This document shows, piece by piece, positions 8,829 through 19,788 of a stretch of 64,000 bases of DNA. Position 1 is the stretch's first letter. Every line of letters starts with the position of its first letter. Origin of the DNA: Archangium lipolyticum (lineage in GTDB: Bacteria; Myxococcota; Myxococcia; Myxococcales; Myxococcaceae); NCBI RefSeq assembly GCF_024623785.1, contig NZ_JANKBZ010000007.1, positions 186,001-250,000 of the forward strand, written 5' to 3'. The notes under the pieces were generated by a model. That model did no database searches, was not told the DNA's origin, and saw only the letters and a list, made by a program, of their open reading frames with translations. Made by a program: the position numbers and the translations under genes.

Positions 8829-8844
8829 GCAATCAAGGAGTAGA

Positions 8845-8859
8845 TGCAACGGTGTTGCG
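8845..8859. promoter_or_regulatory. Fur-family-like operator, site 1
   Basis: TGCAACGGTGTTGCG is a 7-1-7 imperfect inverted repeat located between the divergent lipoprotein (ATG at 8828) and receptor (ATG at 8895) genes. It is the first of four related sites in this locus. A neighbouring half-site (ATGCAATCAAG, 8827-8837) is identical to the left half of site 4. Binding of a metal-responsive regulator is inferred. Confidence 0.55.
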
Positions 8860-8894
8860 AGTCAAGGGTGGGGTGGTGTATCTCGCGGTCACCC

Positions 8895-11450
8895 ATGTGG
8901 ATTTCCTGTCTGGTGCTCTGCCTGCTGGGCGCCGCGGCCGATGTGCCAGTGACTCCCCCTGTGCCCCTGGAGGCCGCTCCCCCGGTGATGCCCGCGGACG
9001 CGCCCCCTCTGGCTGCCCCCGCCACCGTGCTCCTGCGCCTCACCATCGACGCGCAGGGCGAGGTGTCCCACGTGGAGGTCCGTGAGTCGGCCGGGGTTTC
9101 GTTCGACCGCGCCGCCATGGCCGCCGCCGTTCGCTGGCGCTTTCAGCCCGCTCGGCGCGGCGAGGTGCCCCTGGAGGTCCAGGCGGATGTGCCTGTGACT
9201 TTCACGCCTCCTGAACCGGTGGCCGGCGTTGCGCACGGGGATGACCCTCACCCCAGCCCTCTCCCAGAGGGAGAGGGGGCGGACACGGCGGGGAGTACGG
9301 GCGCGGATACCCTCACCCCGACCCTCTCCCGGAGGGAGAGGGAGGAGGGGGGGCCTTCGTTCGCCACCACCGTTCGCGGTCAGACGTCCGCTCCTCCTCC
9401 CGCCGCCGTCGGTGACTTTCATATCCCCGTGGGGCAACTCGCGGATGTTCCTCGTAACTCCGCCTCCGATCTCATGTTGTTGGCCCCCGGTGTCATGCTC
9501 GCCAACCACGGCGGCGAGGGCCATGCGGACACCATCTTCATCCGTGGCTTCGACGCCGGTGAGGGCAAGGACGTCGAGTTCCGTCTCAATGGTGTCCCCC
9601 TCAATGAGGTGTCCCATGCCCATGGTCATGGTTACGCGGACACCTATTTCATCATCCCCGAATTGGTGGATTCGCTGCGCGTCACCGAGGGGCCCTATGA
9701 CCCCTCCCAGGGTGATTTCGGCGTGGCAGGTACCGTGGAGTACCAGCTGGGTTTGAAGCGCCGTGGACTGACCGCGTCCGCCAGCTATGGCAGCTTCGCC
9801 TCGCGCCGGTTGTCCCTGGTTTGGGGGCCTCCCGAGTCCAGTGAGGCCACCTTCGTGGGCCTGCTGCTGCGCCAGGGACATGGTTTCGGACCCAACCGCG
9901 CCTACGCCAACGCGGGCGCCATGGCCCAGGTGGAGTTCCGCGTGGGCGACGAGACGCGGCTCCGCCTCTTTGGCGCCAGCTACGCCGCGCGTTTCTCCTC
10001 GGCGGGCGTCGTCCGCGAGACGGACGTGGTGGACGGGCGCATGCCCTGCGCGGCCGACGCGGACGCCCAGTTCTTCTGTCTCTACGACCCGAACCAGGGC
10101 GGCGCCGGACAGCGCCACCTCGTCTCCGCCGAGCTGCAGTCGCGGCTGCGCCGGGGCGGGCGTTTCGTGCAGCAGGGCTTCGTCGTGCTGCGGCAGATGC
10201 GCATCCGCGACAACTTCACCGGCTTCCTCAATGACGAGCCCCCCATCGGCGAGCAGCAGCGCGGCGACAACAACGAGCAGTACTACCGAGGCACCACCCT
10301 GGGCCTGCGCGGGCGCTATACGCCGGGGCTCACCTGGCTGAAGCAGCCGCAACCGCTGGAGCTGGGCTACGTGGCCCGCTTCGACGATGTCCTCACCCGC
10401 GCCCGGCGCCTGCGCGACCACGGCGGCGCTCCCTACCGCACCCTCTTCGACAACCAGGTGCGCACCACCAACCTGGGCGCCTACGCCTCTCTCCGGCTCG
10501 CTCCGCTCTCCTGGCTCACCCTGAGGGGTGGCCTGCGCTTCGACACCTTCCTCTTCGGCGTGGAGGACCAGAACCGGCCCGCCTCCGACAGGCAGGGCAC
10601 GCGCATTCCCGAGGAGTCCGTCGAGGCCTATGGCTTCTTCGCCAGCCCCCGCGCCTCCGCCGAGGTGCGGCTGTCTCCCCACCTCACCTGGCTCACCAGC
10701 GCGGGTCTGGGCGCGCGCTCCAGCGACGCCGCGGCGCTCTCCGACGCGGAGCTCGCTCCCTACGCCCGGGTGACGTCCGCCGAGACGGGCCTGGGTTGGA
10801 AGCTGGGCGGGGAAGGGCGGCCGTACTCGCTGGAGGCTCGCGGGGCCGTGTTCGCCACCCGTGTCTCGCAGGACCTCGTCTTCGACGAGACGGCCGGCCG
10901 CAACCAGCCCGTGGGCCCCTCGCAGCGGCTGGGCGCCTTCGCCTCCTCGCGCTTCACCCTCGAGGAACGCTTGGATGTCCAGGCCAGTGTCGCCTGGGCT
11001 CGCGCCACGCTGCCCCTGCCGGGTGCCTCGCCGTGGAAGCCGTGGGAGGGCACCGTCATGCCCTACATCCCCCAGCTCCTCGGCCGGCTCGATGCCTCCG
11101 TGCGCGGCGACGTCTCCATCGCCGGGGTGCCGGTGGGATGGAACCTGGCGCTGGGGCACAGCGCCATCGGACCCAAGCCGCTGCCGCTCGACCGCTACAG
11201 CGACCCCATCTTCCTCTTCGACGTGGCGGCTCGGGCCCGGTGGAACTGGATGGAGCTCGGTGTGTCCGTGACGAACCTGTTGGACGCGCGCTGGCGCGAG
11301 GCCGAGTTCAACTACGTCTCCAATTTCCGCGGCCCGGACGCGCCGGCCTCTCTCATGGCCACGCGCCACTTCTCCGCGGGAGCCCCTCGCACCTTCCAGG
11401 GCACTCTCACCGTCTACCTGGACTTCGAACAGGAGGAGCCACAGCCATGA
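8895..11450 (+). CDS. TonB-dependent receptor with N-terminal TonB_C-like domain and repeat-derived linker
   Basis: This 851-residue outer-membrane receptor has a signal peptide (ISCLVLCLLGAAA). Residues about 37-105 form a TonB C-terminal-like domain (LRLTIDAQGEVSHVEVRES...AAVRWRFQPAR). A Pro/Glu-rich linker (about 117-155) is translated from two dispersed palindromic repeats. The plug begins near 160 (SASDLMLLAPGVMLANHG, DTIFIRGFDAGEG), with a His-rich HAHGHGYADTYF from residue 241, followed by a beta-barrel ending in an aromatic strand (TLTVYLDFEQEE). The start at 8895 is chosen for the signal peptide; an ATG at 8844 with AAGGAG close by is possible but would put operator site 1 inside the gene. 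The substrate is unknown; the His cluster and neighbours suggest a metal or metal complex. Confidence 0.85.
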   Translation: MWISCLVLCLLGAAADVPVTPPVPLEAAPPVMPADAPPLAAPATVLLRLTIDAQGEVSHVEVRESAGVSFDRAAMAAAVRWRFQPARRGEVPLEVQADVPVTFTPPEPVAGVAHGDDPHPSPLPEGEGADTAGSTGADTLTPTLSRREREEGGPSFATTVRGQTSAPPPAAVGDFHIPVGQLADVPRNSASDLMLLAPGVMLANHGGEGHADTIFIRGFDAGEGKDVEFRLNGVPLNEVSHAHGHGYADTYFIIPELVDSLRVTEGPYDPSQGDFGVAGTVEYQLGLKRRGLTASASYGSFASRRLSLVWGPPESSEATFVGLLLRQGHGFGPNRAYANAGAMAQVEFRVGDETRLRLFGASYAARFSSAGVVRETDVVDGRMPCAADADAQFFCLYDPNQGGAGQRHLVSAELQSRLRRGGRFVQQGFVVLRQMRIRDNFTGFLNDEPPIGEQQRGDNNEQYYRGTTLGLRGRYTPGLTWLKQPQPLELGYVARFDDVLTRARRLRDHGGAPYRTLFDNQVRTTNLGAYASLRLAPLSWLTLRGGLRFDTFLFGVEDQNRPASDRQGTRIPEESVEAYGFFASPRASAEVRLSPHLTWLTSAGLGARSSDAAALSDAELAPYARVTSAETGLGWKLGGEGRPYSLEARGAVFATRVSQDLVFDETAGRNQPVGPSQRLGAFASSRFTLEERLDVQASVAWARATLPLPGASPWKPWEGTVMPYIPQLLGRLDASVRGDVSIAGVPVGWNLALGHSAIGPKPLPLDRYSDPIFLFDVAARARWNWMELGVSVTNLLDARWREAEFNYVSNFRGPDAPASLMATRHFSAGAPRTFQGTLTVYLDFEQEEPQP
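9244..9277. repeat. Dispersed palindromic repeat, copy 1 (inside the receptor gene)
   Basis: A 34-bp element starting ACCCTCACCCCAGCCCTCTC and ending in GGGAGAGGG, with CCCTCTCCC/GGGAGAGGG arms able to form a hairpin. It lies in frame in the receptor linker and differs slightly from copies 2 and 3. Confidence 0.8.
9309..9342. repeat. Dispersed palindromic repeat, copy 2 (inside the receptor gene)
   Basis: A 34-bp element starting ACCCTCACCCCGACCCTCTC, identical to the intergenic copy at 19755-19788. It is in frame and encodes TLTPTLSRRERE in the receptor. Its spacing from copy 1 (about 31 bp) suggests a paired, REPIN-like unit. Confidence 0.8.
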
Positions 11451-19754: not shown

Positions 19755-19788
19755 ACCCTCACCCCGACCCTCTCCCGGAGGGAGAGGG
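19755..19788. repeat. Dispersed palindromic repeat, copy 3 (intergenic)
   Basis: Identical over 34 bp (and a few flanking bases) to the copy at 9309-9342: ACCCTCACCCCGACCCTCTC, then CCGGAGGGAGAGGG. It sits between the upstream ends of two minus-strand genes and can form a CCCTCTCCC/GGGAGAGGG hairpin. Confidence 0.85.

Follow-up and report, generated by a model that had tools for sequence, protein, structure and literature searches.

The window analysed here, a stretch of 64,000 nucleotides from Archangium lipolyticum, carries the gene of a TonB-dependent receptor. Its open reading frame (8844-11450) encodes 868 amino acids, with domain matches to TonB_C at residues 50-121, to a plug at residues 197-297 and to a receptor barrel. 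A codon-usage gene finder favoured a start at 8895 over one at 8844, and the ATG at 8895, where a signal-peptide-like MWISCLVLCLLG is read, is the probable start of the protein. In the linker ahead of the plug, a preliminary description had reported two 34-bp copies of a dispersed repeat, and both were located within the frame, at 9244-9277 and 9309-9342, with a mutual identity of 91%. As had also been claimed, the second copy proved identical to an intergenic copy at 19755-19788, in that the 33-base cores match and an A precedes both. Chance was excluded by a control of 100 shuffles, which gave no match at up to 3 mismatches. The features are as follows, the repeat being abbreviated TM (triplex motif).

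8844..11450, + strand: TonB-dependent receptor gene, with N-terminal TonB_C-like domain, linker, plug and barrel (open reading frame and domain matches)
9245..9277, + strand: TM copy 1, with arms CCCTCACCC / CCCTCTCCC / GGGAGAGGG and loops CAG and AGA; read as PHPSPLPEGEG
9278..9309, + strand: spacer of the TM doublet, 32 bp; the spacers of other doublets resemble it in length and partly in sequence
9310..9342, + strand: TM copy 2, with loops CGA and GGA; read as LTPTLSRRERE, in a frame unlike that of copy 1
19756..19788, + strand: intergenic TM identical to copy 2; a TM lies at the corresponding place in the Archangium genome G047

The two receptor copies have the same orientation and are both open in the receptor frame, which bears out the claim that a dispersed repeat lies in coding DNA with the frame kept. 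In the aligned coding sequence, the first base of copy 1 falls at codon phase 2 and that of copy 2 at codon phase 1; thus, one element is read in two different frames, giving two different peptides. The 33-mer is open in five of its six frames, and the sixth contains a TGA. From the open frame, we infer that both copies are translated as linker peptide. The hairpin of copy 1, computed as DNA, has a free energy of -9.7 kcal/mol.

On the reverse strand, each copy reads CCCTCTCCC-N3-GGGAGAGGG-N3-GGGTGAGGG, in agreement with the arm consensus and loop lengths of the E. coli motif TM_ECO, given as CCCTCNCCC-N3-6-GGGNGAGGG-N3-GGGNGAGGG by Holder et al. (2015, PMC4666352). By this consensus, the element fits the BoxC / PIT / intrastrand-triplex motif, with a putative triplex fold; Holder et al. 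report no in vivo evidence for a stable triplex in E. coli. The dispersal typical of the family was also found, with many near-identical copies, conserved arms and freer loops. The receptor copies depart from the family in lying outside intergenic DNA, a location that we take to be a habit of these motifs and not part of their definition. A 51-base query from the window matched 4448 of 5426 E. coli genomes, and none of the 30 entries listed had an annotated feature under its best match. One candidate, a TM inside a plasmid-borne ilvC gene, was rejected for one record of 154, in which the match abuts the 3' end of the gene by 5 bases. Exact TMs were also present in viral contigs, in at least 120 stretches.

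Counted as the 34-mer with up to 2 mismatches, the 12.6-Mb genome of A. lipolyticum (G000) holds 515 copies, and all six Archangium genomes hold 258-583 copies each. Across the class, 21 of 147 genomes contain the TM; among these, five genomes of the same family outside Archangium (G042, G049, G051, G092 and G121) have 101-241 copies. Gene context was assessed with the codon-usage gene finder in 1.56 Mb of the A. lipolyticum genome (parts of two contigs), where the calls gave a coding density of 0.91; this plausible density and the known receptor are the only checks on the gene finder. Of the 59 TMs in this sample, 49 were intergenic, 9 lay at gene edges and 1 was inside a gene; the window's own TMs, one intergenic and the two receptor copies, come in addition to these 59. 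A second in-frame, in-gene TM, at G000:C2:682732-682764 (L214), is read as YPHPDPLPEGEGM in an N6-methylase-like protein and lies at the same place in G047. A flank-specific pattern found no match at the corresponding N6-methylase-like gene in the other four genomes, a pattern that a TM with other flanks would escape. Four predicted genes (G000 C1:96748, C1:525591, C1:757519 and C2:488588) run into a TM and stop at its TGA; since they end at the TM's own stop, the element would supply their last residues as well as the stop codon.

Direct TM doublets, defined as a whole TM with the initial ten bases of a second, like-oriented TM 18-48 bp further on, occur at 38 places in the A. lipolyticum genome, where by our own arithmetic fewer than one would be expected by chance, and at 2-48 places in each of the other five Archangium genomes. 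Twenty-nine whole doublets were recovered from 30 loci, with repeats kept and not all independent; in these, the second loop was AGA in 27 first copies and in 2 second copies, and the gap was 32-34 bp in 22 and 26 bp in 4. Inverted TM pairs also occur elsewhere in the same genome. The receptor pair shares this recurrent arrangement, its copies being 32 bp apart. Insertion of a doublet in a single step therefore explains it more simply than two separate insertions, and the receptor copies are probably one captured doublet.

The history of the site was followed in 56 receptor loci, some genomes being represented twice; 53 of these extend 200 bases or more upstream of the plug, a region that was scanned over at most 450 bases. 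All six Archangium genomes carry a TM at the receptor site. Two copies were seen in the six Archangium loci with a full linker (L034-L038 and L072), which represent the five fully visible genomes, L072 (A. lansinium MIWBW, G044) and L037 belonging to the same genome. In the sixth genome, A. violaceum Cb vi76 (G045), the linker of L039 and L064, on the same contig, is cut by the contig end, leaving one TM visible. In G044, the spacer is 3 bp shorter, with the frame kept; the receptor of this genome (L037) also has an in-frame run of SVEG repeats just 3' of the TM doublet, which lengthens the linker. The linkers of the 47 non-Archangium loci, of which 37 have at least 76% identity and 10 have 39-55% identity, contained no TM but other, often Pro/Ala-rich sequence. 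The orthologous receptors examined lack the element at this position, the comparison that had been asked for, and the search for distant orthologues sharing the linker was negative. Since all six Archangium genomes carry the TM and the 47 relatives are without it, a single capture in the Archangium ancestor probably accounts for the doublet. The non-Archangium comparison loci with a known TM count all come from TM-poor genomes, so that arrival of the TM in the lineage is not separable from its capture; the locus from TM-rich G121 (L052), outside Archangium, is cut before the linker.

The preliminary description had further proposed that the insertion lengthened a linker without harm. Tolerance of length is borne out, as the linker ranges from 13 to 128 amino acids in the 33 parseable loci among the 50 outside the six full Archangium loci, and from 47 to 86 in Archangium; the neutrality of the insertion stays an inference.

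The receptors of the six Archangium genomes were aligned by codon, with copy 1 present in five and copy 2 in six. All 54 arm columns were invariant, compared with 21 of the 60 other linker columns covered by at least five genomes (Fisher 1.8e-15), while 5 of the 12 loop columns were invariant. The same held at four-fold degenerate sites in five genomes: 9 of 9 were invariant in the arms, compared with 169 of 376 in the domains (163/343 in plug and barrel and 6/33 in the N-terminal part; p 8.6e-4), although nine sites are few and, as the six genomes share ancestry, the columns are not independent. Of the other four-fold sites in the linker, 1 of 3 was invariant in the loops and 2 of 4 outside arms and loops. 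The pairwise four-fold divergence of plug and barrel among the Archangium receptors is 9-35%; since the arms and their synonymous sites are invariant despite this divergence, neither recency nor peptide selection alone explains them.

Similar behaviour was observed outside the gene. Within 400 kb surrounding the receptor, A. lipolyticum has 12 TMs, the two receptor copies included, each of which has a counterpart in G047 when matched by order and neighbourhood; G047 has three extra. Across these 12 pairs, 2 of 324 arm positions and 14 of 72 loop positions differ, as do 181 of 1356 aligned bases in the 60-bp flanks next to them; in one pair (269630), only one side aligns well. The ten pairs without the receptor copies gave arms 2/270, loops 11/60 and flanks 143/1122, and removal of only the single ambiguous pair gave arms 2/297 and loops 10/66. 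In that ambiguous pair, one TM at G000:C7:349467 corresponds to two in G047, 808 bp apart (G047:C1 ~3793924 and 3794732). That two TMs flank a segment of ~0.8 kb in G047 where G000 has one suggests recombination between TMs, and it fits the TM-linked instability described by Holder et al. (PMC4666352).

Decayed copies were sought in 1.96 Mb of the A. lipolyticum genome at up to 4 mismatches, above which a reversed-motif control gives similar numbers. This sequence contains 71 TMs, of which 65 are perfect with 3-nt loops, 4 combine unaltered arms with a first loop of 4 nt and 2 have one arm substitution; none with 2-4 arm substitutions was genuine. Thirteen matches with 2-4 mismatches were rejected as decayed copies, as they look like opposite-strand readings of the palindromic core of intact copies. 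Taken at the level of sequence comparison, these data point to a constraint on the arms that acts on DNA and not on the peptide.

We therefore weighed other ways in which the arms could have remained identical. Ectopic gene conversion among hundreds of copies could keep the arms alike by concerted evolution, without any function; donors are plentiful, and in G047 copy 2 of the receptor carries the loops of copy 1, so some homogenization is likely. The loops also differ slightly more than the flanks do, as conversion would allow. However, at the flank rate ~43 arm changes would be expected in the 12 pairs where 2 were observed, and erasing ~40 changes in 12 copies would scramble the loops; both loops are instead identical in 5 of the 12 pairs, compared with 9% for random pairs (p 0.0028). 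Correlated switching of both loops would be proof of conversion, for which 12 pairs are too few. We thus consider conversion an unlikely cause of the frozen arms, although weaker conversion between TM copies is possible. Mutual correction of the hairpin arms could add to their identity, but it would put a T in place of the A at the centre of the third arm, a change seen in 1 of 27 copies in two 400-kb stretches (G047). Selection on the linker peptide itself, with the likeness to dispersed repeats being secondary, agrees with the conservation of the arm-encoded residues within Archangium, but the two copies encode different peptides in different frames, the nine four-fold arm sites are invariant, the relatives examined have no such peptide and TMs elsewhere are equally conserved; we regard it as very improbable. 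Slightly less credible still is the idea that every species recently acquired its own insertions at one shared hot spot, which would account for the perfect arms but not for the same position, frame and doublet across the genus, with spacers that are recognizably homologous.

REPIN/RAYT systems are defined by a RAYT gene in the genome, by repeats that flank this gene and by two REPs in inverted orientation. The preliminary description had called the receptor element REPIN-like and suggested a search for a RAYT-type transposase. High copy number, a short hairpin and paired copies speak for such a mobile repeat, as does an inverted TM pair that G047 has and the matching site of G000 lacks. This pair (G047:C1 ~3585687-3585877, matching G000:C7:132690) spans ~190 bp and may reflect insertion or loss; no clean target duplication was seen at the site. 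RAYT-like matches occur in five of the six Archangium genomes (2-8 each) and in TM-rich G121 (4), and three A. lipolyticum genes narrowly reach the threshold of Y1_Tnp, a broader Pfam family. The comparison with REPINs nevertheless fails on several points. The best A. lipolyticum score against the RAYT family NF047646 is 54.6 bits, compared with a cut-off of 80; no TM lies within ~1.5 kb of the three Y1_Tnp genes, a fourth RAYT-like match in this genome falling outside the sample; and TMs were found beside RAYT-like genes at 0 of 20 loci in other genomes and at 0 of 3 in A. lipolyticum. Nor does TM abundance track RAYT-like genes: in the NF047646 profile search of 144 genomes, at least 57 of which had no match, TM-rich G045, G042 and G092 had no match (a statement that leaves aside TM-rich G049 and G051, and that is soft for G045 and G092 because both assemblies are fragmented), whereas TM-poor G072-G074 had 7-10 each. 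In addition, the receptor pair is direct, unlike the inverted pair of a REPIN. RAYT-like genes as the motor of the TM are not convincing, and a REPIN-type origin seems improbable.

The reading that we prefer, and consider likely, is that a doublet was captured once, that its arms were then kept by constraint at the DNA level and that the linker peptide is a by-product of the DNA element. A doublet of ~98 bp, comprising a TM, a 32-bp spacer and a TM in the same orientation, would have entered the receptor linker once in the Archangium ancestor. It could have been read through because five of the six frames of the element are open, and the insertion is likely to have been neutral to the receptor because the linker, presumably periplasmic and flexible, tolerates changes in length. 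The three 9-bp arms of each copy would then have been held at the DNA level, synonymous positions included, while loops, spacer and flanks drifted. The likeliest cause would be a constraint on the DNA itself, through a hairpin or triplex fold or a putative recognizing factor. A broader proposal is put forward tentatively, in which the ~500 TMs of an Archangium genome would each be maintained in their own right, either as structures in the DNA or as recognition sites, and with enough force to outweigh codon drift within a gene.

BoxC and triplex motifs were found in the 1990s, and the literature covered here, as far as its accounts of them extend, shows no function for them. The captured TM serves as a ruler, in which frozen arms lie beside drifting loops, spacer and flanks, in coding as well as non-coding DNA, and the contrast between arms and loops suggests that these motifs are constrained copy by copy at the level of DNA. 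If individual TMs are maintained, part of the amino-acid sequence of a receptor would be dictated by a function of the DNA. With hundreds of TMs per genome and sites common to several species, Archangium makes such a constraint testable.

In its consensus, high copy number, conserved arms, freer loops and pairs of two loop types, the Archangium TM resembles the BoxC/PIT/TM of E. coli as described by Holder et al. (PMC4666352). In their account of E. coli K-12 MG1655, all 23 TMs are intergenic, and the five close pairs are all inverted and always join a type A to a type B; the receptor pair differs from these in being direct and in lying within a gene. The same palindrome is described in Enterobacter sp. 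638 as CCCTCTCCCXX(X)GGGAGAGGG, with 100 copies that are often duplicate or triplicate and lie at gene 3' ends, where they are presumed terminators (PMC2869309). The in-frame capture of palindromic repeats is already known from the descriptions of Rickettsia and enterobacteria. Rickettsia palindromic elements, of ~150 bp, lie in frame in protein genes, and nearly half of those first reported were in open reading frames (Ogata et al. 2000, 2002, via PMC10969869). Likened by description, both they and the Archangium TM lie in frame, although the TM is rarely inside genes; the receptor copies behave as such elements do, as a dispersed palindrome in frame in a conserved gene, absent in relatives and presumably translated through the open frame. 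Similarly, the RU repeats of enterobacteria are MITE-like units of 103-168 bp with open frames in annotated genes (Delihas 2007, PMC2759123), and by this description they share with the receptor TM the character of small dispersed sequences apparently translated in genes. In the literature searched, which included few subscription journals, we found no BoxC/TM copy conserved in frame within a gene. What the present case adds is a BoxC/TM doublet that was captured in frame and retained across the genus, with arms that are conserved at synonymous sites.
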